The notes beneath the pieces are model-generated. The model saw only the letters and a list, made by a program, of their open reading frames with translations, searched no databases and had not been told where the DNA came from. Shown piece by piece: positions 40,796 to 59,150 of a DNA stretch of 64,000 nucleotides; positions within the stretch are counted from its first letter, which is position 1; every line of letters begins with the position of its first letter. This DNA comes from Streptomyces sp. ATexAB-D23 (GTDB lineage Bacteria > Actinomycetota > Actinomycetes > Streptomycetales > Streptomycetaceae): contig NZ_KB892004.1 of assembly GCF_000373645.1 (NCBI RefSeq), forward strand, positions 23,967 to 87,966. The letters are read 5' to 3'. A program made the translations under genes and the position numbers.

Positions 40796-40962
40796 CGGGG
40801 CCGGTCCGGCGGATCTTCGCGGGCCCGCGACGCCTGGCACGCACTCTCGCCGCACGCCCGAATCACCCAAGTACGTCCAGTACGAGGGCGATTCGGGCGC
40901 ACGCAGATAGCACGCACCGGACGCCGCGGGCTGATCCACGAGGATCCGCCGGACAGGCCCTA
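40796..40962. repeat. MITE-like element 2 with imperfect terminal inverted repeats
   Basis: About 167 bp. The ends match as imperfect inverted repeats around an identical 12-base core GTCCGGCGGATC and its complement. The centre has a perfect 10-bp hairpin (CGCCCGAATC) enclosing a second one (GTAC, GTCCA). Ends differ from element 1, but the layout, the CGCCCGAAT arm and the TCCAGTA loop are shared. Its right end CCCTAG supplies the TAG stop of the SARP-type gene at 40960. Confidence 0.65.
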
Positions 40963-42828
40963 GCACCGCGTGTCCCTCGCGCTCGCCTGCTCCCGGGCGA
41001 ACAGCAGGGTCAGCCAGGGGAGTTCGTACCGCACACACTCCTCGGCCGCCTCGGTGTGCGCGGTCACCTCGGGGCAGGGCGGCGGGGGCAGGACGCCGAC
41101 ATCGATCAGGTTCTCCAGGGCCCGTTGCGCGGCCCGGCCCTCCATGCCCAGGGCGCGGGCCGCGGTGGGGAGGGAGAAGGCCGGGTCCGGCAGCGCCGCC
41201 AGGGCGTCGAGGGTGTCGCGGGCGGGCAGGGGCAGCCGGGCCCAGGTGCCCGCGAGCCGGGTGCGGACCCCGACACCGCCGGACGCCAGCTCGTCCAGGG
41301 CCTCCGCCGGGTGCTCCAGCCGGTCCGCGTACTGGCCGAGCGGCATGTGGCGCAGCACGCAGAGGCGGTTGCCGGCCGCGCGCAGGGCGAACGGAAGCAG
41401 CCCGGTGGCGGCGACGATACGTGCGGCGGCGGCCGGTTCGGCGGCCACCCGGGTCCGGCCGATGATCCCGCCGAGCAGGCCCAGGGCCTCGTCGGGGGAG
41501 AGCGGCGGGAGTTCCGTCCGGTGCGCGGCCTCCAGACCGGGCAACCGGCTCCGGGAGGTGACCAGCGCGGCGGTGGGACCCGAGGGCGGCAGCAGCGGGC
41601 CGAGGGCGGCGGCGTCCGGAGCGTCGTCCAGGACCAGCAGGATCCGGCGCCCGGACAGCCAGGACCGCCAGGCGGTCGCGGCCTCCTCCCGGCCGGCCGG
41701 CAGGCGCTCCGTACAGCCCAGGGCGCGGGCCAGCTCCGCCAGCACCGAGGCCCACGGGCGTACGGAACCGTCCTCGGCGCAGAGCCGGGTGGCGACCACG
41801 CCGTCCGGGTAGTGGGCGGCGAGGCGGTGCGCCACGTGCACCGCCAGAGCCGTCTTGCCGACGCCGGCCGGTCCGGTGAGCAGTACCGGCGGGCCGCCCT
41901 CGCCGCCCAGCCGCGCGGCGACCGCCTCCGCCTCCCGCGCCCGCCCGGTGAAGTCGGCGAGGCCGGGCGGCAGCAGCCGGGGCCCGGTGGCACCGCCGCC
42001 CGGCCGTGGCGGGGCGGCATCCGCGAGCACGGCGCGGTAGGCGCCCCGCACCGCAGTGCCGGGCTCCAGCCCCAGCTCGCGGGAGAGCTGCTGCCGGCAG
42101 TCGTCGTACGCGGCCAGCGCCTCCGTGCGGCGGCCGACCCGGTGCAGCGCGGTGATCTGGGCGGCGCGCAGCCGCTCCCGCAGCGGGTGGCGGGCGACCA
42201 TCTCGTCCACGGTGTCGGCGACCGCGGCCGCGTCACCCGTCTCCAACTGCGCCTCCGCCCACGCCTCGTACACCGCGAGCCGGCGCACATGGCGGCGTGC
42301 GACGGCGGCGCGCAGCACATCGGCGCGGCCCGCGAGATCGCTGAAGGGCTCATGCCGCCACAGGTCGAGTGCCTGGCGGTAGAACCGGGCGGCGCGGCTC
42401 GGGGCGCCCGCACGCACCTCGGCGTCACCGCGGCGGGCCAGTTCCTCGAAGCGCAGGCTGTCGCACTCGTCGGCGCCCAGATGCAGGACGTAACCGCCGG
42501 GACCGTGGTGCAGCCGGCCCAGATCGTCGGGGTCCAGGACCCGCCGCAGCGTCGACACGTACACCTGGAGGTTCTTGCGGGCCGTGCGCGGCGGGTCGTC
42601 CGGCCAGACCGCGTCGGTCAGTTCCTCCAGGGAGACCGGCGCGTTCGGCCGGGTCAGCAGGACCGCCAGGACCAGACGCTGCTTCAGCGGGCCGAGCGGC
42701 AGCGGAAGCCCGTCACGGGTGGCGCGCAGCGGGCCGAGCAGGTCGATCCGCAGACGCGCGCCGGCGCGTTCTCCCGCCGCCCCGGACTCCGCCTCCCCGG
42801 GGCGGGTTTCCGCAAAGGTATCCGTCAT
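40960..42828 (-). CDS. SARP/AfsR-type regulator with NB-ARC ATPase
   Basis: 622 residues from ATG 42828 (GAGGA upstream). Residues about 25-120 form the SARP DNA-binding wing (RIDLLGPLRATRDG, KQRLVLAVLLTRPNAPVSLE, DAVWPDDPPRTARKNLQVYV), followed by the bacterial transcriptional activation domain (to about 275). An AAA/NB-ARC module then has Walker A LLTGPAGVGKTALAVHV and Walker B RRILLVLDDAP. It lacks the long TPR tail of AfsR. It lies at the edge of the RiPP locus, whose promoters carry SARP-type repeats. Its stop codon comes from element 2, so it may be shortened at the C-terminus. Confidence 0.88.
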   Translation of the reverse strand: MTDTFAETRPGEAESGAAGERAGARLRIDLLGPLRATRDGLPLPLGPLKQRLVLAVLLTRPNAPVSLEELTDAVWPDDPPRTARKNLQVYVSTLRRVLDPDDLGRLHHGPGGYVLHLGADECDSLRFEELARRGDAEVRAGAPSRAARFYRQALDLWRHEPFSDLAGRADVLRAAVARRHVRRLAVYEAWAEAQLETGDAAAVADTVDEMVARHPLRERLRAAQITALHRVGRRTEALAAYDDCRQQLSRELGLEPGTAVRGAYRAVLADAAPPRPGGGATGPRLLPPGLADFTGRAREAEAVAARLGGEGGPPVLLTGPAGVGKTALAVHVAHRLAAHYPDGVVATRLCAEDGSVRPWASVLAELARALGCTERLPAGREEAATAWRSWLSGRRILLVLDDAPDAAALGPLLPPSGPTAALVTSRSRLPGLEAAHRTELPPLSPDEALGLLGGIIGRTRVAAEPAAAARIVAATGLLPFALRAAGNRLCVLRHMPLGQYADRLEHPAEALDELASGGVGVRTRLAGTWARLPLPARDTLDALAALPDPAFSLPTAARALGMEGRAAQRALENLIDVGVLPPPPCPEVTAHTEAAEECVRYELPWLTLLFAREQASARDTRC

Positions 42829-43223: not shown

Positions 43224-44267
43224 ATGCGACTGGCGGAGATCATCGAACTGCGTCCGGTGCCCGCCGCCGGGCTGCTCGCCACCCTCACCAGACGCTGCCC
43301 GCTGAGCTGCGCCCACTGCTCCACCTCGTCCGGCCCCCGGGGCGAGGACACCCCCGCCGACGCGCTGCGCCGGTTCGTCGGCGGCTTCACCCCCGGCGAC
43401 CGCCCGCAGGTCCTCATGCTCACGGGCGGTGAACCCCTGCTGCGGCCCCGGCTCGTGGACGGGCTCGCCGGACTCGCCGCGCGGGCCGGGACCCGGACGG
43501 CCGTCCTCAGCGGCATGTTCTTCGCGGCCGACGGACGGATACCGGCCCGCATCATGCGCGCGCTGCGCCACATCGACCATTTCTCCGCCAGCATCGACGT
43601 ATTCCACGAACGCGAGGTGCCGCGCGCGGCGGTATTCCGCGCGGTGCACCACATCATGGAAAAAGGAATCGACGCGAGTTTCCATGTCGTGGGACTTTCA
43701 CCCGACGACCCCTATCTCGCGGACGTCACCGCCGCCATCCGGGCCGAGTTCCGGGACCGCGCGGCCGTCCTCGTCAACCACGTACGCCCGGCCGGACGCG
43801 CCGCGCACTGGGCGGCCGCGCGCCCGCCGGGCGGAGCCGGACAGCGCCCCGCCCCGTGCGCGATGGCGGCCTGGCCGACCGTGGCCTTCGACGGGACCGT
43901 CACCGCCTGCTGCAACCAGCGCGTGGTGGACGTCCGCCCCGCGCCGCCGCACCTGCGGCTCGGGCACATCGCCGTCGACGACTGGGCGGACATACGGTGC
44001 CGCTGCCAGGAGTCGCCCGTGCTGCGCACCCTGCGGACCGCCGGCGCCGGGTCCTGCGCGGACTGCCGGGCCCTGGCGCGGCGGCCCGGAGCGCTGGGGG
44101 CGGCGCGGGCCGCCGGGTCCAGCCCCGCCGCCGGCGCGATGGATGTGCTCGGCGCCCGGCTCCAGCGCGACGCGGGGGCCGAGACGCTGCTGCGCCGGTA
44201 CGGGACCGGGCGGTACGCGCCGCTCGTGCTGCTCGGCGGCCGGGACGGCGAGGAGGCACCCGCGTGA
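43224..44267 (+). CDS. Radical SAM protein (RiPP maturase type), first gene of plus operon
   Basis: 347 residues from ATG 43224, with AGGAGG 7 bases upstream. The cluster motif is CPLSCAHCST (C-x3-C-x2-C). GGEPLL (LMLTGGEPLLRPRLV) is the S-adenosylmethionine-binding motif. The C-terminal half has more cysteines (GQRPAPCAMAAWP, TACCNQR, CRCQESPVL, GSCADCRALARRP), suggesting extra iron-sulfur ligands as in SPASM-like enzymes. The stop overlaps the next gene's GTG. Together with the small peptide downstream it is likely a peptide-modifying enzyme. Confidence 0.88.
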   Translation: MRLAEIIELRPVPAAGLLATLTRRCPLSCAHCSTSSGPRGEDTPADALRRFVGGFTPGDRPQVLMLTGGEPLLRPRLVDGLAGLAARAGTRTAVLSGMFFAADGRIPARIMRALRHIDHFSASIDVFHEREVPRAAVFRAVHHIMEKGIDASFHVVGLSPDDPYLADVTAAIRAEFRDRAAVLVNHVRPAGRAAHWAAARPPGGAGQRPAPCAMAAWPTVAFDGTVTACCNQRVVDVRPAPPHLRLGHIAVDDWADIRCRCQESPVLRTLRTAGAGSCADCRALARRPGALGAARAAGSSPAAGAMDVLGARLQRDAGAETLLRRYGTGRYAPLVLLGGRDGEEAPA

Positions 44268-44971
44268 GAAGCGCCGGCGCCACCTCACCGGCCGCCGCGC
44301 TGCTGCGGCTGGAACTCTCCCTCGTCCAGCCGGTGTTGCGATCGGCCGCCGCCCGCATGTGGCGCTCCGGCCCCGGGCTCCCCGCCCGCTACCGCCACTA
44401 CCTGCACACCATGCACCAGGTGATCCGCGCCTCCGTCCCCCTCATGGAACGGGCCGCCGGGCACTGCGAGGCGCGGCCGCACGACCCGGTGGCACCGCCG
44501 CTCGCCCGGTACCTGCGGGCGCACGCCGAGGAGGAACGGGGCCACGACGACTGGCTGCTCACGGACGCCGCCGTCTGCGGGGCGCCGCCCGGCGAACTGA
44601 CCGCCGCCGTCCCGCCCGCCCGGGTCGCCTCCCTCGTCGGGGCCCAGTACTACTGGATCGAGCACAGCCACCCGGTGGCCCTGCTCGGCTACATCGCGGT
44701 ACTGGAGGGCAACGCACCGGCCCCCGGCCTGGCCGCCCGGCTCGCGAGGGAGACCGGGCTGCCGCCCGCCGCCTTCGAAACCGTACGCCTGCACGCGGAC
44801 CTCGACGACGGGCACAGCGCGGACCTGGACCGGCTCATCGGCCGGCTGCCGCTGAGCCCGCAACAGCGCTCCCTGATCGCCGTCAGCGCGCTGCACACCG
44901 TCACCGCACTCGCCGAGCTGTTCGACCGCATCGCCACGGGACCACACACATCGGGGAGCACCCATGACTGA
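44264..44971 (+). CDS. Heme-oxygenase-like (iron-containing redox) enzyme
   Basis: 235 residues from GTG 44264 (GTGA overlap). It is all-helical, with LRAHAEEERGHDDWLLTDA and VRLHADLDDGHSADLDRL as likely metal-ligand helices (the H-x3-D-x2-H group). This is the pattern of heme-oxygenase-like diiron enzymes, some of which oxidise or shorten amino-acid chains. It contains no heme-binding signature. Sitting between the radical SAM and the 69-residue peptide genes, it probably acts on the same peptide. Confidence 0.75.
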   Translation: MRSAGATSPAAALLRLELSLVQPVLRSAAARMWRSGPGLPARYRHYLHTMHQVIRASVPLMERAAGHCEARPHDPVAPPLARYLRAHAEEERGHDDWLLTDAAVCGAPPGELTAAVPPARVASLVGAQYYWIEHSHPVALLGYIAVLEGNAPAPGLAARLARETGLPPAAFETVRLHADLDDGHSADLDRLIGRLPLSPQQRSLIAVSALHTVTALAELFDRIATGPHTSGSTHD

Positions 44972-45173
44972 CCCTGCGGACGACCGCGACCGCCTGCGCG
45001 CACTGGAGGACGCCGGGTTCCCGCTGCACAGCCTCTCGCCCGAGCAGCGGGACGTGCTCCGGGACCTCAGCGCGGAGGAACTGACCCTGCTGCTGGGCCT
45101 CAAGGAGCGGCTGGACGCGGCCGAGCCGGAGGTACAGGCGCACAGCGAGATCGCCGGCGGAGCGCTGTTCTGA
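44964..45173 (+). CDS. 69-residue candidate RiPP peptide sharing PEVxAHS with the three-core precursor
   Basis: Starts at ATG 44964 and overlaps the previous gene by 8 bp; its stop TGATG overlaps the next start. The N-terminal two-thirds is a helix-rich leader-like stretch (SPEQRDVLRDLSAEELTLLL). Residues 55-62 read PEVQAHSE and the end is IAGGALF. PEV-x-AH recurs three times in the 85-residue precursor (55727-55984). It may be a second precursor with a short C-terminal core, or a partner protein. It has no membrane segment. Confidence 0.75.
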   Translation: MTDPADDRDRLRALEDAGFPLHSLSPEQRDVLRDLSAEELTLLLGLKERLDAAEPEVQAHSEIAGGALF

Positions 45174-48100
45174 TGACCACCGCCACACGGACGAAGTGCC
45201 CCGACTGCCCCGAACCACCGCCGGACGGCGCAGCCTTCTGCCCCCGGTGCGGGACCGCCTGCGTCCCGGCGGCCGGTTCCGGCGCGGCCGAGGAACGCCG
45301 GGTGGTCACCGTCGTCTTCTGCGACCTCGTCGGCTCCACGGCCCTGTCCGGACGGCTCGACCCGGAGACGCTGCGCACCGTGACCCTGCGGTACTTCGCG
45401 CTGATGCGGACCCGCATCGAGGAACATGGCGGCACGGTGGAGAAGTTCATCGGCGACGCCGTGATGGCGGTCTTCGGCGTCCCCGCCCGCCACGAGGACG
45501 ACGCCCACCGGGCCCTGGCCGCCGCCCGCTCCATGGTCACCGGCCTCGACGGGCTCAACGCCGACCTGGACCGCGGGCACGGAGTACGGCTCGCCGTCCG
45601 CATCGGCGTGAACACCGGCGAGGTCGTGGTGAACGCCGACCCGGCAGCCCGACAGGCACTGGTCTCCGGCGAAGTCGTCAACATCGCCGCCCGCCTCGAA
45701 CAGCACGCCGGCACGGGCGAGATCCTCATCGGCCCCGCCACCCTCCGCGCCGCCGGACCCTCGGCGGTCACCGAACCGGCCGGGGCGCTCTCCCTCAAGG
45801 GCGTCCTTGCCCCCGTACCCGCCCACCGCCTGGTCGCACTCCACGAGGACGACCCGGAACGGGTCCGGCGCTTCGACACCCCCTTCATCGGCCGCGAACA
45901 GGAACTCGCCGAACTCCGGCTGCTGCTCCGCAAACTGGCCACCGACCCCCGCTCGCACCTGGTCACCGTCTACGGCGAGGCGGGCCTCGGCAAGACCCGG
46001 CTGCTGCGCGAATGGCTGCGGGACCGCCCGGCGTACGGAGAAGGCAGATGCCGCCCGTACGGCGAGACCGGGACCCTCGCACCGCTCGCCGAAGCGGTGC
46101 GCCAGGTGCTCTTGGCCGTCGGGGAGGACGCCGGGCTCGCCCGGCTGCCGGCCCCGGAGCGGACCGAGGCGGACCAGGCGCTGCGCCTCCTGCGCGGCGG
46201 ACTGCTCGCGGACGGCACCCCCAGCCCCTCCACCGACGACACGCTCATGGCCCTGGCCTGCCTGCTGGACGCGCTCTCGCGGGAACGGCCCGTGGTGCTC
46301 GTCCTGGACGACTGCCACTGGGCGTCCGCGCCGCTGCTCGACCTCGCGGACCGGCTGCTGGACGAACTCGACCGCTCCGCCGTCGCCCTGGTGTGCGCCG
46401 CTCGCCCCGAACTCCTGGAGACCCATCCGGGGTGGGGCAGCGGCCGGATGCGCTCCGCCTCCCTCATGCTCACCCCGCTCACGCGCCAGGAGGCCGCGGC
46501 CCTGGCCGGCGAACTCGTCGAGGTCGCCGCCCACCGCCAGGGTGTGCTGGAGAGCGCGCTCGACCGCGCCGAGGGCAACCCGCTCCACCTGGAACACCTG
46601 ACGGCCGTGGCCGCCGAGTGCGACGACCTGCCGCTCACCGTGCACGCCCTGCTCGGCGCCCGCATCGACGCGCTGCCGCCCGAGGAGCGGACCCTGCTGC
46701 AACTCGCCGCCGTCCTGGGCCGCGAGTTCCGCCGCGCCGACCTGACCGGGCTGGCCGCCGCCGAGGAAGCGCGAACCGCCGACTCCGCCACCGGCCTGCT
46801 GCGCGGACTGCTGCGGCGGCGGCTCATCGAGACCGGCGACCGCAGCCGGGCCGCGAGCGCGGTGCTCCGGTTCGGCAGCGCCCTCGTCCAGGAGACCGCG
46901 TACCGGGGGATGGCCAAGAAGGTGCGCGCCCGGCGGCACGAGCACGCCGCCAGGGTCCTGACCGGGCGGGAGGCGGGGGACGCCGCCGTCGGCACCCACC
47001 TGGCGCGCGCCCACCGGCTCCTGACCGAACTCGGCACGCACGACGAGGACACCGACGTACTGCGGGCCCGCGCCGCCGGACTGCTCACCCGGGCCGGCGC
47101 GGCCGCCCTGGCCCGCTCCGACCTGGCCTGGGCCGACGACCTGCTGACCCAGGCCCTCGACCTGGCCGCCCCCGGCGAACCCGTCGCCGCCGAGGCCGCC
47201 CGCCGCCTCGGCGAGACGAAGGCGGCCCGCGGCGACGCGGTGCGCGGCCGGGAACTCCTCGCCGGGGCGCTCGACACCGCCGAGCGGGCCGGTGACGCGC
47301 TGGGCGCCGCCCACGCCCGGCTCGCGCTGACCGCGCTCGACCCCCGGCACGGTTCGGCCGCCGACGTCGCCGAGGCCGCGCTCGGCCCGTTCACGGCGGC
47401 GGGCGACGACCAGGGCATCGCCCGCGCCTGCGTGCGGATGGCCCAGGACCGCCAGCGGCGCGGCCGGCACGCCCAGGCCGAGGCGCTGCTCAGCCGCGCA
47501 CTCGACCACGCGGACCGCGCCGACGCCGAACCCGAACGGGCCCTCGCACTCGGCGCGTTCGGGATCTCCCTGTGGCGGGGCCCGACCCCGGTCGCCCGCG
47601 CCGTCGAGCGCTGCGAACAGCTCCTCGCCGCCCACGGCGCCGGCCGGCCGACGGTGCGCGCCACCCTGGCCTGCCCGCTGGCCGTGCTCCTGGCCCTCCA
47701 CGGCCGCCCCGACGAGGCCCGAGCCCTGCTGGCCGAGGCGGCGGGGCTCGCCCACGGCCTCGGCTATGCGGAGAGCGCGTTGTTCGTCCCGCTGTTCGCC
47801 GCCGAGGTCGAGGCGCTGACGGGCACCTCCGAGCGCAGACTCGCCCTGCTGGACGAGGCGGCCCGCGCCGGCCGGGAACTCGGCGCCACGGGTGCGCTGC
47901 CCGGCATCGCCCGCGAACGGGCCCGCCTGCTGCTGGAGCGCGGGGAGCCGGCCCAGGCGCTGGCCCTGCCCGACCCGCTGGAGGCCGGGCTGCCCCCGGC
48001 GGAGTCCGCCGACGCCTTCGGGCTGCGGGCCCGCGCCCTGGCACTCGCCGGGGAACCGGCCGCCGCCCGCACCTGCGCGCAGCGGGCGACCGCCGCCGCG

Positions 48101-48331
48101 GGTGACACCGACTCACCGGTCGTGCGCGGCACGGCCGCCCTCGACCTCGCGCACACCCTGCGCACCCTGGCGCTGCCCGGCGAGGCGGCCCGGGAGGCGC
48201 GTACGGCGCTGCGGCACTTCGCCGCCAAGGGACACCGGCTCGGCGCGGACCGCGCGGCCGCGTTCGCCGACGACAGCGCGGCCGCGGCCCGGGACACCGA
48301 CCCGGCCGGGCGGGAAGGCAGGACCGTATGA
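45173..48331 (+). CDS. Class III nucleotidyl cyclase with AAA ATPase and TPR-like repeats
   Basis: 1052 residues. An N-terminal zinc-ribbon-like pair (CPDCPEPPPDGAAFCPRCGT) precedes a class III cyclase domain with metal-binding Asp residues in VVFCDLVGSTA and FIGDAVMAVFG and the NIAARLE substrate motif, so it may be active. An AAA/NACHT-like ATPase follows (YGEAGLGKTRLL, VVLVLDDCHWA). The C-terminal half is alpha-helical repeats. It is the largest gene of the operon and may integrate a nucleotide signal with peptide-processing, although such multi-domain proteins are usually regulatory. Confidence 0.88.
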   Translation: MTTATRTKCPDCPEPPPDGAAFCPRCGTACVPAAGSGAAEERRVVTVVFCDLVGSTALSGRLDPETLRTVTLRYFALMRTRIEEHGGTVEKFIGDAVMAVFGVPARHEDDAHRALAAARSMVTGLDGLNADLDRGHGVRLAVRIGVNTGEVVVNADPAARQALVSGEVVNIAARLEQHAGTGEILIGPATLRAAGPSAVTEPAGALSLKGVLAPVPAHRLVALHEDDPERVRRFDTPFIGREQELAELRLLLRKLATDPRSHLVTVYGEAGLGKTRLLREWLRDRPAYGEGRCRPYGETGTLAPLAEAVRQVLLAVGEDAGLARLPAPERTEADQALRLLRGGLLADGTPSPSTDDTLMALACLLDALSRERPVVLVLDDCHWASAPLLDLADRLLDELDRSAVALVCAARPELLETHPGWGSGRMRSASLMLTPLTRQEAAALAGELVEVAAHRQGVLESALDRAEGNPLHLEHLTAVAAECDDLPLTVHALLGARIDALPPEERTLLQLAAVLGREFRRADLTGLAAAEEARTADSATGLLRGLLRRRLIETGDRSRAASAVLRFGSALVQETAYRGMAKKVRARRHEHAARVLTGREAGDAAVGTHLARAHRLLTELGTHDEDTDVLRARAAGLLTRAGAAALARSDLAWADDLLTQALDLAAPGEPVAAEAARRLGETKAARGDAVRGRELLAGALDTAERAGDALGAAHARLALTALDPRHGSAADVAEAALGPFTAAGDDQGIARACVRMAQDRQRRGRHAQAEALLSRALDHADRADAEPERALALGAFGISLWRGPTPVARAVERCEQLLAAHGAGRPTVRATLACPLAVLLALHGRPDEARALLAEAAGLAHGLGYAESALFVPLFAAEVEALTGTSERRLALLDEAARAGRELGATGALPGIARERARLLLERGEPAQALALPDPLEAGLPPAESADAFGLRARALALAGEPAAARTCAQRATAAAGDTDSPVVRGTAALDLAHTLRTLALPGEAAREARTALRHFAAKGHRLGADRAAAFADDSAAAARDTDPAGREGRTV

Positions 48332-49188
48332 CCACCAAAACGGCGGAAGGGCTCACCTGGAGCCTGCGCGACCGCACGCCCGACGACCTCGCGATGCTCG
48401 CCGACACGGTGCCGGCCCTCTCGGCCGACCCCTCGCAGTGGTCGGACGGGGCAGGCGTACGCGTCTGCGTCGTCGACACCGGGGTGGAGTGCGGGCACCC
48501 CGGGGTCGGCCCGGTCGACGGCTCGTACGAGGTGAGGGCCGGCGCGGACGGGACCCCGCGGGTCATCGACAGCGGCCCGCTGCCCGACGGAGCCGGCGAC
48601 GGATGCGGGCACGGCACGGCGTGCGCCGGGATCGTGCGGCGGGTGGCCCCGGAATGCTCCCTGTACAGCGTGCGCGTGCTCGGCCAGGGCTTCACCGGCA
48701 CCGGAGACGCCCTGCTCACCGGGTTGCGCTGGGCGGTCGACCAGGGCTTCGACGTGGTCAACCTGAGCCTGTCCACGACCCGCCCGCAATTCCTGGAGAC
48801 CCTGCGCTCCCTGGCCGACCAGGCGTTCTTCACCGGCACCACGCTGGTGGCATCGGCCCACAACACGCCCGTGGAGAGCTTCCCCTGGCGGTTCTCCTCG
48901 GTGATCTCGGTCGGCACGCACCGCGAGGACGACCCCGGGCTCTTCCTCTACAACCCCGCACCGCCCGTCGAGTTCTTCGCTCCCGGCCAGAACGTGCAGG
49001 TGGCCTGGACGGGCGGCAAGACCATCCGCACCACGGGCAACAGCTTCGCCACCCCGTTCATCAGCGGGCTGTGCGCGCGGCTGCTCGGCAGCCGCCCCAA
49101 GCTGACCCCGTTCCAGATCAAACACGCGCTGTACCTCTCCGCCGCGAACGTACGCATCGGCGATCCAGGAACCCGAGGTGAATCATGA
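48328..49188 (+). CDS. S8 (subtilisin-like) serine protease, no secretion signal
   Basis: 286 residues, ATGA overlap with the cyclase gene. The catalytic triad is complete: Asp in VCVVDTGVECGHP, His in DGCGHGTACAGIV and Ser in TTGNSFATPFISG. The oxyanion-hole Asn is within TLVASAHNTPVES. There is no signal peptide and no long propeptide, so it should act inside the cell. In a RiPP operon, such a protease could remove the leader of the 69-residue peptide or cut the multi-core precursor. Confidence 0.93.
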   Translation: MTTKTAEGLTWSLRDRTPDDLAMLADTVPALSADPSQWSDGAGVRVCVVDTGVECGHPGVGPVDGSYEVRAGADGTPRVIDSGPLPDGAGDGCGHGTACAGIVRRVAPECSLYSVRVLGQGFTGTGDALLTGLRWAVDQGFDVVNLSLSTTRPQFLETLRSLADQAFFTGTTLVASAHNTPVESFPWRFSSVISVGTHREDDPGLFLYNPAPPVEFFAPGQNVQVAWTGGKTIRTTGNSFATPFISGLCARLLGSRPKLTPFQIKHALYLSAANVRIGDPGTRGES

Positions 49189-49796
49189 GCCAGTCCCACG
49201 GCCTCGTACCCGCCACCGGCGCGGGCCCCGCGACACGGGCGGGCAGCGCCGAACGCGATCTGCTGCAGTCCGTCGTCGAGACCGCGCGCGCCATCTTCGG
49301 CGCCGCGGCCAGCTCCGTCCTGCTGCACGACCGGGACGCCGACGAACTGGTCTTCCAGGCGGTGGCCGGGGAGGGCGAGGAGGCCCTCGTGGGCTCCCGG
49401 TTCCCGGCCGGCCGGGGGCTCGCCGGCTGGGTGCTCGTCTCCGGCGAGCCGATGGTCGCGGACGACCTGAAGCAGCAGGGCATGTTCGCCCGCGATGTCG
49501 CCCGGTCGACCGGCTACGTCCCGGACGCGCTGATGGCCGCGCCGCTCGCCCACCACGACCGGGTGCTCGGCGTGCTCGAAGTCCTCGACCCGGTCGAGCA
49601 GTCCCGTTCCAGCCTCTCCGAACTCGACCTGCTCGCCCTCTTCGCCCGACAGGCGGCGGCGGCCCTCGCCGTCGTCACCGAGCGCCGCGAGGAGGAGACA
49701 CCCACGGCGGTCCGGACGCGAAGCCTGGAACTGGTGACCGCCTTGCGCGACGTCCTGCTCGACGGTCTTCCGCCGCAGGCCCCGCACGCGGGCTGA
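49185..49796 (+). CDS. GAF-domain protein
   Basis: 203 residues, ATGA overlap with the protease. A single GAF domain (about residues 20-165) has AASSVLLHDRDADELVFQAV, GRGLAGWVLVSGEPMVADD and APLAHHDRVLGVLEVLD. GAF domains bind small ligands such as cyclic nucleotides, which fits with the cyclase two genes upstream. It is the last gene of the plus operon; the convergent glycosyltransferase begins 10 bp later. Confidence 0.85.
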   Translation: MSQSHGLVPATGAGPATRAGSAERDLLQSVVETARAIFGAAASSVLLHDRDADELVFQAVAGEGEEALVGSRFPAGRGLAGWVLVSGEPMVADDLKQQGMFARDVARSTGYVPDALMAAPLAHHDRVLGVLEVLDPVEQSRSSLSELDLLALFARQAAAALAVVTERREEETPTAVRTRSLELVTALRDVLLDGLPPQAPHAG

Positions 49797-49806
49797 GCCG
49801 GGAGCG

Positions 49807-50919
49807 TCAGCGTGCCGCCGACTCCACGGCGTCGGCGGCACGCGCCTCGCTCTTGCCGTCGGCCAGCAGACCGCCGACCTCCCGCACCCGCGCGCACAGC
49901 CCCGGATCGCGGCCCGTGTCCTCGACGGCGCCGCGCAGTTCGGCCGCGTCCGCCCCGGCCTCCGGCAGCCTGCGGGCGACTCCGGCGCGCAGACAGGCGG
50001 CGGCGAGGACCTGCTGCTCCGACCCGTTGGGGGCGACGAGCAGCGGCTTGCCGTGCAGGAGCGCCGCGAGCACGGGGGCGGACGTGGCATTGGTCAGCAC
50101 GAGGTCGGCCCGCTCCACGAGCGGCCCCATCCAGGTGCGGCGCCCGATGGCCAGCCGGGCGCCGGGGGCGGCCTCGGGGGCACCGGACCGGCCCAGCTCG
50201 ACGACGGCCCGGTACGTGCCGGAGGCGAACGCGGCGTTCAGACGCGGCCAGAGACTGCTGCCGCCGAAGGTGCGGCCCAGATGCACGTACGCGATGGGCC
50301 CGGCGGCCGGCAGCGGCTCCGGCACCGGGGGCGCCGGCTCCCACCAGCAGGGGCCGACATGGCGTACGGCCGGGGGCAGTTCGGCGCCTGGGACCTCCAT
50401 GACGGGGTGGCCGCGCAGCAGGAAGGCGGTGCCCAGGAGCGGGGTGTCCGGGAAGCGGTCGCGGCGCGGGGCGAGCCCGGCGCCCTCCCGGAGCGCCGTG
50501 TAGTGCTTCAGCGTCCGGGCCAGCCGCCAGGCACGGCCGCAGCCGTCGTCCGGGCCGGTGCGGTAGGGCCACAGGTGCGCCGCGAGCCCCAGGACCACCA
50601 CCGGCAGCCCGGCCGCCTCGGCGGCCACCAGCGCGCCGTGGTTGAGCACCGAGGTGACCAGCACATCGGGGCGCAGCGCGCGGACCGCCCCGGCCACGGC
50701 GGCGTACTGCTCGGGGCCCCGGACCGTCCAGTGGGTCACCGACAGCGCGGCGTGCCCGGCGACGGCCGCCGGCTCAAGTCCCGCGGCGGTGACGGCGGGC
50801 GCGGCGTCCGGCCCGCCGAGGACCTGGACGGTGTGGCCGCGGCGGCGCAGCTCGCGGCCGGCCGCGAGGACCGGGTAGAGGTAGCCGGGATCGCTCAGCG
50901 GGCACAGCAGTACGTTCAT
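49807..50919 (-). CDS. Glycosyltransferase, GT-B (UGT/MGT type)
   Basis: 370 residues, ATG overlapping the POP stop (ATGA). The N-terminal half starts MNVLLCPLSDPGYLYPVLAA with HTVQVLGG, as in GT1 enzymes. The C-terminal half has a nucleotide-sugar region LVLTNATSAPVLAALLHGKP and VAPNGSEQQVLAA, with the usual His-Gly-Gly changed to Asn-Ala. It is the last gene of the precursor operon, so a glycosylated peptide is a reasonable prediction. The sugar donor is unknown and no sugar-synthesis genes are nearby. Confidence 0.85.
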   Translation of the reverse strand: MNVLLCPLSDPGYLYPVLAAGRELRRRGHTVQVLGGPDAAPAVTAAGLEPAAVAGHAALSVTHWTVRGPEQYAAVAGAVRALRPDVLVTSVLNHGALVAAEAAGLPVVVLGLAAHLWPYRTGPDDGCGRAWRLARTLKHYTALREGAGLAPRRDRFPDTPLLGTAFLLRGHPVMEVPGAELPPAVRHVGPCWWEPAPPVPEPLPAAGPIAYVHLGRTFGGSSLWPRLNAAFASGTYRAVVELGRSGAPEAAPGARLAIGRRTWMGPLVERADLVLTNATSAPVLAALLHGKPLLVAPNGSEQQVLAAACLRAGVARRLPEAGADAAELRGAVEDTGRDPGLCARVREVGGLLADGKSEARAADAVESAAR

Positions 50920-53027
50920 CCGGAGGCGTCCTTCGTCAGGTCGAGGCCCAGGTGGTGGGCGAGGAAGGCCATGACGTCCGCGTACAGGCCGGCGCTGCGC
51001 GAGACGCCGCGCGTGCCGTGCCCCACACCGCGCTCGGTGCGCAGCACCACCGGCCCGTCCCCCGAACCGGCCCACTGGAGCGCGGCGCACATCTTCCGCG
51101 CGTGCGCCGGGTCGACGCGGCTGTCGCCGTCGAACACGGCCAGCAGCACGGCCGGGTAGCGGACGCCCTCGCGCACCCGGTGGTACGGGGAGTACGCCAG
51201 CAGCCGCGCGAAGTCGGCGGGGTCCCCGGCGCTCCCGTACTCCTCGCGCCAGCTCGCACCCATCCCCGACAGCTCGTAGCGCACCATGTCCAGCAGCGGC
51301 GCCGCGCACACCACCGCCCCGTACAGCTCCGGCCTGCGCGTCAGTGCGGCGCCCGCCAGCAGGCCGCCGTTGGAGCTGCCGAGCACCCCGAGCCGGCCCG
51401 GTGCGGCCCAGCCCCCGGCGAGCAGGTGGCCGGCGGCGGCGTCGAAGTCCTCGAAGACGCGGTGCTTGTGCTCGCGGCGCCCGGCCTGGTGCCACTCCTC
51501 GCCCTCCTCGCCGCCCCCGCGCACACAGGCCACCGCGTACACGCCGCCCGCCCGCACCCAGGGCACCGCCTGCGGGGTGAAGCCGGGCGTCATCGAGGCG
51601 CCGAAGCCGCCGTATCCGGTGAGGACGGCGGGGCGGGGCCGGTCGGGAACGCCGGCGGGGGACATCACGAACATGCGCACCTCGGTGCCGTCACCGGAGA
51701 GGACGACCTCCTGGCTGACCCGAACCCCCTCGGCCGGCGGCGCGGCAGGCGGACCGCCCGCCCACGGACCTAGGCGTCCGGTCACCGCGTCGTAGTGCAG
51801 GACGGTTGCGGGGGTGATGTGGTCGGTGTACGTGAACCACACCTCGTGGCCGCCGTCCTGACGCATTGTCAGGCGAGTGACCGTGCCCCGCCCCGGCAGC
51901 GGAACGGACCCTGTCCGTGTGCCGGTCCGGGCATCGTGCAGGGTCATCTCACCGACCGCGTGCCGGGTCCGTACGACCACCAGCAGCGGCCGCTCCAGCG
52001 CCGGCCCGTCCAGGACCGCGACGTCCCCGAGCACCGTGCCCGGTTCCTCGCCGACCAGGGTGCGCCACCGGCCGGGTCCCGTGGCGTCGGGGCGGGCCTC
52101 GGCGATCCTGCCGCGCGGCGCGTCCGCCGTCGTCCTGAGGAGCAGCGGCCCGCCGCCGGAACGGACGCGGACCGAGGTGCGGGCGTCGGTCCCCCGCTGG
52201 AAGGGGCGCAGGACCGGCCGGTCCGGGCCGGTCGCGCTCAGATCGGCCGTCCACAGATCGGTGCGGGGCGCGGTGCCCTCGCTGGCCCCGACGACCAGGA
52301 GCAGGCCGTCGGGGGAGGTGGCCACGGTGTAGTACTGGGTCTCGGACCGCCCGGCGCCGAAGATCTCGGTATCCAGGTCCGCCGGGGTGCCGACCCGGTG
52401 CAGGTACACCCGGCGGTGACGTCCCCCGGTCCGCTCCGGCGGCAGCCGGCGTACGTAGTAGAAGGCCCGGCCGCCCGGCAGCCAGGCCACGGGGGAGCGG
52501 CGGACCCGGTCCACGGGCCCGTCCACCACCGCCCCGGTCACCGTGTCGAGCACCCGCAGCACCGACTGCTCCGTACCGCCCGACGACAGCTGCACGGCCA
52601 CCGAACCGCCCTCCCACGACGGCTCCCAGGCGTCCAGCACCGTCGAACCGGACGGGTCGGCGTCCAGCGGGTCGAGCAGCACCCTGGTCCGGCCGCCCTC
52701 GCGGACGGCGAGCACCGCGAACTCCCGCCCGGGGTCCCTGCGCAGATGGAACTCCCGCCCGCCACGCACCACCGGAGGCGAGGCGCCGCCCCCGGCGAGC
52801 AGCGCCGCCATCCGGCCGCGCAACGCCTCCCGGCCGGGCCAGCGGGCCTGCTCCCCGGCGTAGAGCCGGTCCTGAGCGGCGCTCCAGACCGCGGTGGCGG
52901 GGTCGTCCGGGTCCTCCAGCCACCGGTACGGATCGGCCACCGGCCGGCCGTGGAGGACCTCGACCGGACCGGTGCGGGGAGCGGCCGGGTAGACCGGCCC
53001 GGCGTCGCGGGGCGGTGACACGGTCAT
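50916..53027 (-). CDS. Prolyl oligopeptidase (S9)
   Basis: 703 residues. The N-terminal seven-bladed propeller covers about 80-420. The catalytic domain has Ser in GVLGSSNGGLLAG, Asp in AVFDGDSRVDPAHAR and His in RGVGHGTRGVSRS, a complete triad. No signal peptide is visible. POP enzymes act on short peptides and could trim cores released from the precursor; the precursor's PEV, VESP and DTP-W segments contain prolines. It lies in the precursor operon after the exporter. Confidence 0.93.
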   Translation of the reverse strand: MTVSPPRDAGPVYPAAPRTGPVEVLHGRPVADPYRWLEDPDDPATAVWSAAQDRLYAGEQARWPGREALRGRMAALLAGGGASPPVVRGGREFHLRRDPGREFAVLAVREGGRTRVLLDPLDADPSGSTVLDAWEPSWEGGSVAVQLSSGGTEQSVLRVLDTVTGAVVDGPVDRVRRSPVAWLPGGRAFYYVRRLPPERTGGRHRRVYLHRVGTPADLDTEIFGAGRSETQYYTVATSPDGLLLVVGASEGTAPRTDLWTADLSATGPDRPVLRPFQRGTDARTSVRVRSGGGPLLLRTTADAPRGRIAEARPDATGPGRWRTLVGEEPGTVLGDVAVLDGPALERPLLVVVRTRHAVGEMTLHDARTGTRTGSVPLPGRGTVTRLTMRQDGGHEVWFTYTDHITPATVLHYDAVTGRLGPWAGGPPAAPPAEGVRVSQEVVLSGDGTEVRMFVMSPAGVPDRPRPAVLTGYGGFGASMTPGFTPQAVPWVRAGGVYAVACVRGGGEEGEEWHQAGRREHKHRVFEDFDAAAGHLLAGGWAAPGRLGVLGSSNGGLLAGAALTRRPELYGAVVCAAPLLDMVRYELSGMGASWREEYGSAGDPADFARLLAYSPYHRVREGVRYPAVLLAVFDGDSRVDPAHARKMCAALQWAGSGDGPVVLRTERGVGHGTRGVSRSAGLYADVMAFLAHHLGLDLTKDASG

Positions 53028-53080: not shown

Positions 53081-54427
53081 TCAGGAGCCGCCGCTGCCGG
53101 GACGCGGCCCGGGAGGCGCCGGGACCAGTCCGGCGGCCCCGGCGTCGTCCTCACCGGCCGGTGCGGGCAGCGGCTCGTCCGCGTCCTTCGGCGCACCACC
53201 CCGGTCGTCCTCGGTGGCGTCCAGACTGGTTTCGCGCAGCAGCGGCACCGAGGAGAGCAGGGTGACCACCGCCGCGGTGCCCGCCAGCACCAGCCAGGTG
53301 CGGCTCGCCCCCACGGAGTCCACGAAGGAGCCCGCCACGATCGGCCCGGCGGAGGCCAGCCCGGCCATCATCAGACCGGTCGCGGTGCTGACCCGGCCCA
53401 GCAGATCGCGGGGCGCGAGCACCAGCACCGCACGGCCCACCACGATGCCCGCGGGCGGGCTGAAGAAGACGACCACGATCAGGACCGGGCCGATCGCCCA
53501 GGGAAGCGTCGTCCGGGAGAAGATGGCCAGGCCCAGCGCCCAGACCATGCCGATGAGCAGGAAGAGCCGCCCCGCCGGGTTCCGCTTGATCAGCCAGGGC
53601 GCGGCAGCCGCGCCCAGCAGCCCCCCGATGCCGGCACAGGCCATCACCGCGCCGATCGCCGTCCCGCCCGCACCGCTCTGGCGCAGCGAGACGACCATCG
53701 TCACCTGAGCCGCCGCCGAGACGATGTTGATACCCGCGGCGAAGATCAGGGCGGCCAGCAGCGCCCGCTGGTGCGTCAGCCAGCGCAGCCCGGCCGTCAG
53801 CCGGTTGTCGCGCTCGCTGTCCGCGACCCGTTCGGTCGGCCTGATCCCGATCCGCAGCAGCAGCACGGCCGACACCCCGTAGGAGGCGGCATCGACGGCG
53901 AACGGCAGGATCGGGTCCAGGGTGAACAGCCAGCCGCCCAGGAACGGGCCGATCAGCGAACTCGACGCCATCGCCGTCTGGCTGCGGCTCAGCGCGTCGG
54001 TGAGATCCTTCTCCGGCACCACGTCGCGCACCGCGATCGTGGCCGCGGGCGAGAACATCGCGGTGGCCGCCCCCTCCACCACGGCCACGCCGAGCAGCTG
54101 CGCCTGCCCGAGCCCTCCGAGCCCCGACGCCAGCGGGATGCTGGCCAGCGCCACCAGACGCACCACATCGGTGCCCACCATGATCATCCGACGGTCGAGC
54201 CGGTCGGCGAGATGGCCCGCGGGCAGCCTCAGCAGCGTCCGCGTCACCATCGAGCAGGTCGCGACCGTCCCCGCCTGGGCCGCGCTGCCGCCGATGGACA
54301 GCACGAGCAGCGGGAAGGCCAGCAGCGACAGCTGGGAGCCGAGGGTGGAGAGCGTCGAACTGAGCCAGTAGCGGCGGAAGTCGGCATTGGTGCGCAGAAT
54401 GCCCGCGCTCTTCATACCGGAATTCAC
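53081..54427 (-). CDS. MFS exporter
   Basis: 448 residues. The start is taken as the GTG at 54427 because it forms the GTGA overlap with the radical SAM stop; ATG 54415 is the alternative. About twelve membrane segments are present (for example LSLLAFPLLVLSIGG, LLGVAVVEGAATAMFSPAAT, AIGAVMACAGIGGLLGAAA). DRLDRRMIMVGTDVVRL is the loop 2-3 motif. The acidic, proline-rich tail is cytoplasmic. In this operon it probably exports the mature peptide. Confidence 0.9.
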   Translation of the reverse strand: MNSGMKSAGILRTNADFRRYWLSSTLSTLGSQLSLLAFPLLVLSIGGSAAQAGTVATCSMVTRTLLRLPAGHLADRLDRRMIMVGTDVVRLVALASIPLASGLGGLGQAQLLGVAVVEGAATAMFSPAATIAVRDVVPEKDLTDALSRSQTAMASSSLIGPFLGGWLFTLDPILPFAVDAASYGVSAVLLLRIGIRPTERVADSERDNRLTAGLRWLTHQRALLAALIFAAGINIVSAAAQVTMVVSLRQSGAGGTAIGAVMACAGIGGLLGAAAAPWLIKRNPAGRLFLLIGMVWALGLAIFSRTTLPWAIGPVLIVVVFFSPPAGIVVGRAVLVLAPRDLLGRVSTATGLMMAGLASAGPIVAGSFVDSVGASRTWLVLAGTAAVVTLLSSVPLLRETSLDATEDDRGGAPKDADEPLPAPAGEDDAGAAGLVPAPPGPRPGSGGS

Positions 54428-55620
54428 CCCAGCCGTCCGGCACCGTGCAGGCAGTCCAGCACCCCTGCGTCCACCCGGTCCTGGAAGACGGCGCGGACCG
54501 CCGCCTCCTCGTCGTAGCGGTAGTGGTCGTGGCAGCTGACCCAGCGGCCCTCCGTCTGCTCCGCGCTCAGATAGCCGTCGGCGACGGTGCCGACCTCCAT
54601 GCCGGGCTTCCCCGCGGTCTCCCAGCAACTGGCCAGCACACCATCGGCGTTGATGACCGCCCCGTACCGGCCGTCGGCGAAGGAGCAGGCCTGGCAGGGG
54701 ACATGGGCGCGCGGCCGGGACACCGTGAAGCCGAGCTCCAGCGCGCGGGCGTGCCAGCGGACGAAGTCCTCGACCAGGCCGTCCTCGTGGAGCAGGTTGT
54801 TGGCGTAGCCGACACCGACGTCGCCGACACGGGCGAAGTGGATGCCGCAACGGGCCGGGTCGAGGCGTGACCCGAGGCGTTCCACCAGCTCGTCGACGCC
54901 GTGCCGGTTCAGGTGCGAGACGTTGACCCGCAGCATCCAGCGCAGGGAGGTGCGCTCGATGGCGCGCGCGATGTTGGAGACGATGACGTCGAAGGTGCCG
55001 CCCCCGGAGCGCTTGACCCGGATCGAGTCGTGGTCGGCGCGGTCGCCGTCGAAGGTCACCTGGACGGAGCCGAGACCCGCCGCGTTCAGCTCCTTCGCGA
55101 TCAGCGGGGTGAGCAGCGTGCCGTTGGACGTCATCGACGCGGTGAGCGGGCCCAGTTCACCGGCCCGGGTGAGCAGGTCGCGGCAGCCGCGCGGGTTGAG
55201 CAGCGGCTCCCCGCCGAACAGCAGCAGCGACAGCCGGTCGAGCCCCGCCGCCTCCATGCGCGTCCGGGTGAAGTCCAGGACCTGCCCGACGGCCTCGGGC
55301 GTCAGACGGGCGTGGCGGATGCGCGGCGGCCTGCTGCCGCCCTTGGGGTCCTGCGAGGTGTTCTGGAAGCAGTAGCCGCAGCCGAGGTTGCAGTCGGTGC
55401 TGGTCAGCACGGTCAGGGAGTACGAGCTGTAGGGCTTCAGGTCGTACAGACCGGCGTCGCGCAGATAGCGTTCGGCCGAGGGCCGCAGGGTGCCGTCGGG
55501 CTCCACCTGCGCGGGGCGCATCAGCGCGTACCCGCCGGCGCCGAGGAACCACCACCCCCTGTCGGCGCGGATCAGACGGGCCCCGGCGGAGGGGACGGCG
55601 AGGGACTGCGTACCGGACAC
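54424..55620 (-). CDS. Radical SAM/SPASM-like peptide maturase of the multi-core precursor
   Basis: 398 residues from GTG 55620 (GGAGGT upstream). The cluster motif is CNLGCGYCFQNTSQD (C-x3-C-x2-C), with LLLFGGEPLLNPRG for SAM binding and MTSNGTLLT. C-terminal cysteines occur in PCQACSFADGRYGAVINADG, VLASCWE, WVSCHDHY and VLDCLHG, typical of auxiliary iron-sulfur clusters. The N-terminal ~85 residues probably form a leader-binding wing. It lies 106 bp after the precursor and likely makes a cross-link in each WCGVHQE core. Confidence 0.93.
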   Translation of the reverse strand: MSGTQSLAVPSAGARLIRADRGWWFLGAGGYALMRPAQVEPDGTLRPSAERYLRDAGLYDLKPYSSYSLTVLTSTDCNLGCGYCFQNTSQDPKGGSRPPRIRHARLTPEAVGQVLDFTRTRMEAAGLDRLSLLLFGGEPLLNPRGCRDLLTRAGELGPLTASMTSNGTLLTPLIAKELNAAGLGSVQVTFDGDRADHDSIRVKRSGGGTFDVIVSNIARAIERTSLRWMLRVNVSHLNRHGVDELVERLGSRLDPARCGIHFARVGDVGVGYANNLLHEDGLVEDFVRWHARALELGFTVSRPRAHVPCQACSFADGRYGAVINADGVLASCWETAGKPGMEVGTVADGYLSAEQTEGRWVSCHDHYRYDEEAAVRAVFQDRVDAGVLDCLHGAGRLG

Positions 55621-55726: not shown

Positions 55727-55984
55727 TCAGAGGTTCTGCTCCTGGTGGACGCCGCACCACGGGGTGTCCTCGCCCTCCTCGGAGTGGGCGATCACCTCGG
55801 GCTCCTCGGCCACCTCCTGGTGCACCCCGCACCAGCCGATGGGCGACTCGACGTGGGCGACGACCTCGGGCTCCTCGGCCACCTCCTGGTGCACCCCGCA
55901 CCAGCCGATGACGGAGTCGGAGTGGGCCTCCACCTCGGGGGCGTCCTGCTCGGGGGTCTCGTTGGGCTCGACGTTCTCGGCCAT
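55727..55984 (-). CDS. Multi-core RiPP precursor with three WCGVHQE repeats
   Basis: 85 residues, ATG 55984 behind GGAGG. A short leader (MAENVEPNETPEQDA) is followed by three units. PEV-x-AH begins at residues 16, 39 and 62, and WCGVHQE at residues 28, 51 and 76. The first two units are separated by VAEE; the last ends QNL. The peptide is very acidic outside the cores. Trp, Cys and His are the likely sites of radical SAM cross-linking. I know no family with this core. Confidence 0.93.
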   Translation of the reverse strand: MAENVEPNETPEQDAPEVEAHSDSVIGWCGVHQEVAEEPEVVAHVESPIGWCGVHQEVAEEPEVIAHSEEGEDTPWCGVHQEQNL

Positions 55985-56239: not shown

Positions 56240-57541
56240 ATGGAAACCGAACCCGCTGTCACGGCCGGCGCGCCAGTGCCGGCAGGGCGGCCGCGACTTC
56301 CGGAGCCGCTCGGGGCCGGGTTCGTGGACCGGCCGGCCGAGGTGCTGGCCGAGATCCGGGAGACCTGCCCGGTGACCCGGGTCAGGACACCGGCCGGGCG
56401 CCCGGCGTGGCTGGTGACCCGGGCCGAGGACGTGCGGGCCGGATTCATGGACCCGCGCCTCTCCCTGAGCGGCGGCCGTACACCCGACCCCGCGGTGCGC
56501 CGCCGCGCACTCGACCTGACCCTCGTCAACTACGACCCGCCGGACCACACCCGCATCCGCCGCCTGGCGACGCCCGCCCTGACCCCGGCGCGCATGGCCG
56601 CCCACCGCGGGCGGATCGAGCGGGCCGCCGCCGAACTCCTCGACGCGGCGGACGCGGCGCGCGGCCGGGGCCCGGTCGAGCTGATGGACGCCTTCGCCCG
56701 CCCCTTCGCCTTCCGCTCGCTGTGCGAGGTCTTCGACGTCCCCGAGGAGGAGCGCGCCGCCCTGTACGGGCCGGTGGCGCTCCTCGCGGACAAGACCGGA
56801 CGCACCGCCGCCGAGGTGGACGCGAGCGTCACCCGGATCGACGCCTTCGTACGCGGTGAGATGGCCCGCAGGTCCGCCGCCCCGGGTGACGACCTGGTCT
56901 CCCGCGTCCTGGCCGCCTGGCGGGAACAGGGCGGCGCGAGCGAGGACGAAGTGGCGTCCCTGCTGGCGATGCTGCTGCTCGCCGGGTTCGACAGCACGGT
57001 GCAGGCGATGGGCATGAGCGTGGTGGCGCTGCTGGCCCACCCGGAGGTGTGGCAGCGCCTGAGCGAGGAGCCGGGACGCATCCCGCGCGCCGTGGACGAG
57101 CTGCTGCGCTGGGACACCCCGGGCTCCTTCGGCACCAAGCGGGTGGCGCTGGAGGACATCCGGTTCGGCGACACCGTCATCCCGGCGGGCAGCGGTGTCC
57201 TGCTGTCCGTGGCGGCGGCCAACCACGACCCCCGCTGCCACGCCGACCCCGGCACGCTGGACCCCGGCCGCTCCACCGCGAGCCGCCACCTGAGCTTCGG
57301 CCTGGGACCGCACTACTGCCCCGGGTCAGGGCTCGCCAGGCTGGAGCTGACGGTGGCCCTGACCCAGTTGCTCGGCCGCTGGCGCCGGCCGGCCCCGGCG
57401 GTTCCGCTGTCCCAGCTGGCCTGGGGCGGCGGCTACCTGCACCGCCGCCTGGCCGCGCTGCCCGTCCTGCCGGACGGGCCCGTGCAGCGCCGGCTTCCGG
57501 TCAGCTGCCCCAGCGCAGGGCCACCGTGTCGCCCGCGTTGA
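56240..57541 (+). CDS. Cytochrome P450
   Basis: 433 residues from ATG 56240 (GAGAGGA upstream). It has the I-helix LLAGFDSTVQA, the ExxR region ELLRW and the heme loop FGLGPHYCPGSGLARLE. These are all intact, so the enzyme should be active. No fused redox partner is present and no ferredoxin gene adjoins it. Its promoter shares the SARP-type repeats, so it probably oxidises the peptide in the same pathway. Its stop overlaps the convergent gene's end by 41 bp. Confidence 0.93.
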   Translation: METEPAVTAGAPVPAGRPRLPEPLGAGFVDRPAEVLAEIRETCPVTRVRTPAGRPAWLVTRAEDVRAGFMDPRLSLSGGRTPDPAVRRRALDLTLVNYDPPDHTRIRRLATPALTPARMAAHRGRIERAAAELLDAADAARGRGPVELMDAFARPFAFRSLCEVFDVPEEERAALYGPVALLADKTGRTAAEVDASVTRIDAFVRGEMARRSAAPGDDLVSRVLAAWREQGGASEDEVASLLAMLLLAGFDSTVQAMGMSVVALLAHPEVWQRLSEEPGRIPRAVDELLRWDTPGSFGTKRVALEDIRFGDTVIPAGSGVLLSVAAANHDPRCHADPGTLDPGRSTASRHLSFGLGPHYCPGSGLARLELTVALTQLLGRWRRPAPAVPLSQLAWGGGYLHRRLAALPVLPDGPVQRRLPVSCPSAGPPCRPR

Positions 57542-58913: not shown

Positions 58914-58984
58914 GGCCTGCTCCTGGGATGAGGGGCGCCGGCCGGCCCCGCGGCCTCGCCGAACCGGGCGGGAGGCAGCAGCGG

Positions 58985-59150
58985 GCAGGGCCGCCGCCCG
59001 AACGCGTGGACCGGCTTCCTGTGGTGCTTCGCCGCGTGGGCATTCGGGCTCGGAACGGCCCCCGCCGTCCCACACCGCTGCGCGTCAGCCCCGGAGTCTC
59101 ACCGGGTTCCCCCATGTGGCAGGGCGGGACGCTACCGGACGCCGGGCGGC
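58985..59150 (-). ncRNA. Cobalamin riboswitch (minus strand)
   Basis: The core at 59074-59112 reads on the minus strand as GGGGAACCCGGTGAGACTCC then GGGGCTGACGCGCAGCGGT, the conserved junction of cobalamin riboswitches. The GCCCGAATGCCCAC further downstream may be part of the peripheral element. It controls the gene at 57501-58913. Outer limits are estimates. Confidence 0.82.

Follow-up and report, generated by a model that had tools for sequence, protein, structure and literature searches.

A three-core peptide precursor beside a radical SAM enzyme in Streptomyces sp. ATexAB-D23: possible thioether rings between Cys and the residue at +3

Introduction

What chemistry does a radical S-adenosylmethionine (SAM) enzyme perform on a short peptide with three copies of one seven-residue core? 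The question is raised by a locus of Streptomyces sp. ATexAB-D23 (assembly GCF_000373645.1), which we analyzed within a window of 64,000 nucleotides (contig NZ_KB892004.1, positions 23,967 to 87,966 of the forward strand; coordinates below are those of the window). An open reading frame of the - strand, with its ATG at 55984 and its stop at 55727, codes for a peptide of 85 amino acids with an acidic N-terminus, predicted to be a three-core precursor of a ribosomally synthesized and post-translationally modified peptide (RiPP). The next gene downstream, after a gap of 106 bases, codes for rSAM1, a predicted radical SAM peptide maturase of 398 amino acids (54424..55620, - strand). The original prediction, made from the sequence of the window, pointed to the Trp and His of the core, with the adjacent Cys, as typical sites of carbon-carbon or thioether linkage.

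We propose instead, with a probability of roughly 0.48, that the peptide is a multi-core precursor in which rSAM1 would tie each Cys to the His at +3 by a thioether that does not involve the alpha carbon. The product is probably an uncharacterised kind of modified peptide. Thioethers of a related sort have been described: in the accessible part of one report, PapB joins Cys to the Asp of C-x3-D at the beta carbon and to Glu at the gamma carbon (PMC9413430), and in the accessible part of another, Cys23 of NxxcA is joined to Asn20 (PMC8326336).

Results

The translation confirms three copies of WCGVHQE, each placed 6 to 8 residues after a PEV-x-AH tag. The cores start at residues 28, 51 and 76 and the tags at residues 16, 39 and 62, and the core periods, first given as 23 and 23-25 residues, are 23 and 25. 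A GGAGG sequence ends 6 bases upstream of the ATG, and no other tandem repeat in the window scores as high as the array (254 vs 94 for the runner-up). When 5.8 billion proteins were searched (15 candidates), nine matched the precursor at E <= 10, so that we regard it as a real gene and not a chance reading frame; one of the nine, P0009, loses the repeat past its second tag and is apparently read out of frame. A near DNA search and a protein search of a plasmid collection gave no match. The search of protein databases for WCGVHQE-like repeats beside radical SAM genes, advised in the original prediction, did find relatives, with WCG[VI]HQE in 11 loci; the 32 core copies of these window-like loci read only WCGVHQE or WCGIHQE, in 10 DNA spellings. 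Two of the closest loci, L096 (same species) and L020 (Streptomyces sp. A1277, rSAM1 98%), hold the same genes as the window over the stretch compared, and their precursors differ from that of the window by one synonymous and one amino-acid-changing codon (L096) and by three of each (L020), sequences too similar for selection on the precursor to be tested from these pairs.

The statement that no known RiPP family has this core holds as far as we could follow it. The precursor peptide matched 0 NCBIfam and 0 Pfam families at E <= 0.01, the aroma-sacti models did not match it, and NF045559, related to the sactipeptide precursor StsA, matched neither the window precursor nor 10 relatives. In 5.39 million open-access texts no paper contained the core strings, and none contained 'aroma-sacti'. 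The window family is thus undescribed in the literature searched, which is mostly open-access, partly seen and mostly without subscription journals, so that absence in print is not shown by this. Judged by their sequences, the window precursor and its relatives form a well conserved, unnamed family of predicted RiPPs.

At E 1e-20, 19 of the 295 genomes sampled from the window's genus had a relative of rSAM1, and a genome collection gave 62 loci, several other actinobacterial genera included. A protein search gave 668 matches at E 1e-10, 120 of them listed (7996 candidates scored). In a rank-wide sample of the phylum, rSAM1 was found at E 1e-40 in only 2 of 396 genomes; the window's own genome is one of the two and the other belongs to the same genus, so that the family appears to be patchy. 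The small acidic peptides near these relatives have in common an [ED]V-x-AH tag with a Cys further on. Such a precursor was present in 69 of 81 loci, the window counted, which amounts to 58 distinct precursors, 40 with one tagged unit and the rest with two to six; that of L032 has a fifth core with no tag of its own. These precursor and unit counts exclude L001-L019, whose places are represented by the window itself or by longer loci. The 12 loci counted as lacking a precursor are L030, L033, L038, L045, L047, L060, L066, L067, L068, L076, L081 and L095; of these, L033, L038 and L047 come from short contigs, L076 (36%) and L081 (25%) are distant, L060 does carry a precursor, which was probably dropped by the fragment-length filter, and the sole candidate for L095 is the weak one of L019.

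The evidence on which the proposal chiefly rests is the residue at +3 from Cys. Among 81 distinct units this residue is Asn in 40, His in 28, Gln in 8, Asp in 3, Ser in 1 and Tyr in 1, so that Asn, His, Gln or Asp occupies +3 in 79 of 81 units vs 21% in the background. The presence of Cys itself in 81 of 81 units was a condition of gathering, as was the tag; the +3 residue was not required at first, and the later profile contained it. Entropy across the units is 1.69 bits at +3 and 2.15 to 3.17 bits at offsets -8 to -1. A later database search matched 135 proteins; among the 120 matches listed, 12 were already known and 108 were new precursors, with Asn at +3 in 100, His in 6, Val in 1 and Phe in 1, although the profile of that search already held Asn and His at this position. 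Trp directly before Cys was found in 46 of the 81 units and in 16 of those 108 listed new precursors, and was absent from 35 and 92, respectively. Furthermore, Trp and His, reported as three residues apart, are four apart in the core; the pair three apart is Cys and His. Since Trp is not conserved, a Trp-His or Trp-Cys link is rejected as the core reaction of the family. L069 and L070 may inform on the range of acceptors, since each has two precursor types beside one rSAM1, the first built of CG[VI]Q units and the second containing CIGD. L031 has three single-core precursors (CGVH, CPLS and CEIH) upstream of one rSAM1, CPLS being a rare exception at +3.

In rSAM1, the CxxxCxxC motif lies at C76, C80 and C83. 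These three residues, together with C308, C311 and C362, are invariant in an alignment of 37 sequences, and C331 is kept in 33 of 37, with Ser in four. Complete SPASM domains contain about seven Cys, and no Pfam match to SPASM (PF13186) was obtained in rSAM1 at E <= 0.01. From its sequence rSAM1 looks like a protein with a twitch-like C-terminus and not a full SPASM protein. The adjoining gene is a radical SAM gene followed on the same strand by an exporter, as had been noted, and the SPASM label is the doubtful part. The best NCBIfam models for rSAM1 are maturases of Cys peptides, and all models listed are far under cut-off (PapB, 74.5 bits against 340). A profile search of solved structures gave CteB as the best match (4.6e-16; anSME, 6.4e-6), and CteB is also the best solved match when the confident structural model of rSAM1 is compared. 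Ahead of the barrel the model has three short strands and one helix, short of the RiPP recognition element (RRE), whose fold is given in the accessible part of a report as three strands and three helices (PMC8326336). By profile and by predicted structure, rSAM1 resembles the thioether-forming maturases.

The gene after rSAM1 codes for the exporter, a major facilitator superfamily (MFS) protein of ~444 amino acids whose start is uncertain (53081..54415, - strand). It is followed by a prolyl oligopeptidase (S9) family peptidase of 703 amino acids (50916..53027, - strand) and a GT-B glycosyltransferase similar to MGT and CalG2 (49807..50919, - strand). Co-occurrence was scored in 53 distinct loci of >=14 kb with a precursor, 11 near-duplicates being left out; the peptidase has a gene of at least 45% identity in 43 of them, and the glycosyltransferase one of at least 40% identity in 42. 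A cytochrome P450 gene (56240..57541, + strand) is divergent from the precursor and might act on its Trp: P450 genes were present in 11 of 21 loci with Trp cores vs 1 of 32 without Trp. In 27 of those 32, DUF6895 takes the place of the P450, and DUF6895 genes were found in 30 of 34 single-core loci vs 1 of 19 multi-core loci, neither comparison being corrected for phylogeny. A 2026 review, seen in part, cites a lasso-peptide epimerase of the DUF6895 type (PMC13352647). Beyond the P450 gene, a cobalamin riboswitch match (RF00174) lies at 59038-59112 on the - strand (33.6 bits, gathering 31.5), and downstream of it is a gene (57501-58940) for an apparently secreted protein with weak, sub-threshold squalene-cyclase matches.

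On the + strand, six genes between 43224 and 49796 follow one another with overlaps of a few bases. They code for rSAM2, a second radical SAM protein that is weakly YydG-like (43224..44267), an iron-containing oxidase of the haem-oxygenase-like type (PF14518; 44264..44971), a second small peptide of 69 amino acids (44964..45173), a guanylate cyclase / AAA ATPase regulator of 1052 amino acids (45173..48331), a subtilase of family S8 (48328..49188) and a GAF-domain protein (49185..49796). A SARP/AfsR-type regulator (40960..42828) lies on the - strand. In L055 and L091 (L093 repeats L055), the half of the locus with regulator, subtilase, GAF protein and oxidase is 84-91% identical to that of the window (subtilase 89-91%, GAF 88-90%), and the half with rSAM1 is only 60% identical and of the DUF6895 type. 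It looks, from these identities, as if the two halves had been swapped as modules.

The second small peptide, which we propose as a second precursor, matches the aroma-sacti domain model NF045560 with 73.7 bits (cut-off 30), the genome's sole match at E 0.001, and ends in EPEVQAH-SEIAGGALF. Among 35 distinct aroma-sacti peptides, 24 have an AG[GA]ALF end and 11 have tails like KLA, KLV or KVV. The oxidase is nearby for 22 of the 24 (the window counted by its own genes), with rSAM2 as well for 20, and the two peptides without it sit at the extreme end of their locus; rSAM2 or the oxidase accompanies 0 of the 11 others. Eight loci were scored as having the oxidase and no aroma-sacti peptide, of which six show the peptide gene in their gene order and two repeat L036 and L040. 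Judged by this association, rSAM2 and the oxidase probably act on the AGGALF peptide.

The EV-x-AH near the end of this second peptide, encoded in the operon of the subtilase itself, recalls the tag of the three-core precursor. The tag is also present in the StsA-type precursor of L101, as PDVVAH after an aroma-sacti-like leader, and WTAP follows VVAH there; from this and the shared name, it is our own reading that the published StsA is a member of NF045559. In two StsA-type clusters the subtilase (48-49%) and the GAF protein (52%) were matched, the S9 peptidase match was weak (30%), the SARP match weaker, and rSAM1 had no match at E 1e-3. From the tag in the subtilase-operon peptide, the tag in the L101 precursor, and the sharing of subtilase and GAF protein without rSAM1, we infer that the subtilase cuts at or near EV-x-AH. 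It has no signal peptide by eye, and it matches the QhpE model, among others, under cut-off and second to mycosin; QhpE removes its leader in the cytoplasm (PMC7876137, seen in part). We also considered the His of EV-x-AH as the ring partner of Cys, which is disfavoured: [DE]V-x-[AG]H occurs in 35 of 35 distinct aroma-sacti peptides, all of them Cys-free in their last 60 residues.

Discussion

Conservation and gene order lend good support to the original prediction that the peptide is a multi-core RiPP precursor with a radical SAM maturase and an exporter as neighbours; the prediction was right about the precursor, and probably wrong about the chemistry. As we picture the pathway, rSAM1 would take a hydrogen from the carbon of the +3 residue that adjoins its imidazole, amide or acid group, where the Cys sulfur would then bond, giving one ring per unit and three in the window precursor, at minus 2 Da each. 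The P450 may oxidise or cross-link the Trp ahead of Cys; the subtilase, likely cytosolic, would cut at or near EV-x-AH and so separate the units; the oligopeptidase could trim these, the glycosyltransferase add a sugar and the MFS protein export the product.

Three observations weigh against this scheme. In the structure comparison with the rSAM1 model, anSME is nearly equal to CteB; by profile, TigE and ChlB rank next after CteB; and the StsA tag precedes a WxxP motif bound by a separate RRE (PMC12710340, seen in part), hence it lies within the leader. Formation of no ring at all by rSAM1, which would epimerise a residue, oxidise Cys in the manner of formylglycine or form a cyclopropane, as TigE does, with rings left to the P450 or others, is nevertheless rather unlikely, since the profiles favour CteB over anSME (4.6e-16 and 6.4e-6) and the strict partner at +3 would be left unexplained. 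A sactipeptide-type reaction, in which rSAM1 would join Cys to the alpha carbon of a preceding residue, either Trp or one in the acidic stretch, with +3 serving for recognition only, also appears unlikely: every upstream offset from -8 to -1 is less conserved than +3, and the StsA clusters lack a match to rSAM1 at the threshold given, even though SkfB, a sactisynthase, is among the structural matches of the rSAM1 model and StsA-type clusters share the S8 protease, the GAF protein and the VVAH motif.

Two further explanations are a good deal less probable. If only the window-like clade were considered, the invariant W-C-G-[VI]-H-Q-E in 32 of 32 core copies would suit a cyclophane-type bond between carbons of Trp and His or another residue, but the absence of Trp before Cys in many units and in most of the new precursors listed, and the low scores of rSAM1 to cyclophane maturases (FxsB 47 bits, YhhB 51 bits), make such a bond very improbable. 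Export of the cores as Cys/His metal-binding units, a chelator with no Cys ring, could account for CxxH in the same clade and would fit a cobalamin riboswitch match 3 kb off; this too seems highly improbable, because +3 is mostly Asn or Gln in the relatives, which are poor metal ligands, and a plain chelator needs no radical SAM maturase.

The thioether to the +3 residue would place the family nearest the ranthipeptides freyrasin (PapA-PapB), thermocellin (CteA-CteB) and NxxcA, with which it shares a radical SAM maturase (CteB being the best solved match of rSAM1), a Cys in each core, repeated units per precursor and an acceptor carbon beside an amide or acid group. Unlike these, it has Cys first in C-x-x-N/H/Q, whereas in NxxcA the Asn stands three residues before Cys and in PapA the motif is C-x3-D; it also has a twitch-like C-terminus in the maturase, its own EV-x-AH on nearly every unit, and genes for a subtilase, an oligopeptidase, a glycosyltransferase and a P450 or DUF6895. 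We know of no precedent for His as a thioether acceptor. The StsA-type actinobacterial sactipeptides (NF045559) are alike in their subtilase and GAF partners and in PDVVAH after an aroma-sacti-like leader, and differ in a radical SAM enzyme unmatched by rSAM1, a separate RRE protein and a CxC core. Maturation of quinohemoprotein amine dehydrogenase (QHNDH) by QhpC, QhpD and QhpE likewise combines radical SAM thioether formation with a cytosolic subtilisin-like leader protease (PMC7876137, in its accessible part); both rSAM1 and the subtilase have Qhp-type matches, far under the equivalog cut-offs, and the window encodes short multi-core peptides beside an exporter and not an enzyme subunit. 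Cyclophane RiPPs of the FxsB, YhhB and HaaA types, several of them actinobacterial, are also radical SAM systems, but the window family lacks a conserved aromatic core residue and its maturase scores low against theirs.

A bolder view, which the present comparisons leave doubtful, is that of a new RiPP class with C-x-x-[H/N/Q] thioether rings, Cys-His included, in each self-tagged unit, in which one subtilase would read EV-x-AH on two unrelated precursors, and the Cys ring peptide and the AGGALF peptide, the latter modified by rSAM2 and the oxidase, would be released together under one regulator. If the thioether proposal is true, the small rings formed by the rSAM1 family differ in direction and in their set of acceptors from those of the ranthipeptides in the sources seen, and a thioether between Cys and His may be among them. 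The residues that occur naturally at +3 (Asn, His, Gln and Asp) would then be a ready panel of substrates for the choice of acceptor by radical maturases, and the shared EV-x-AH makes directly testable the question of how a single protease could act on several RiPPs.
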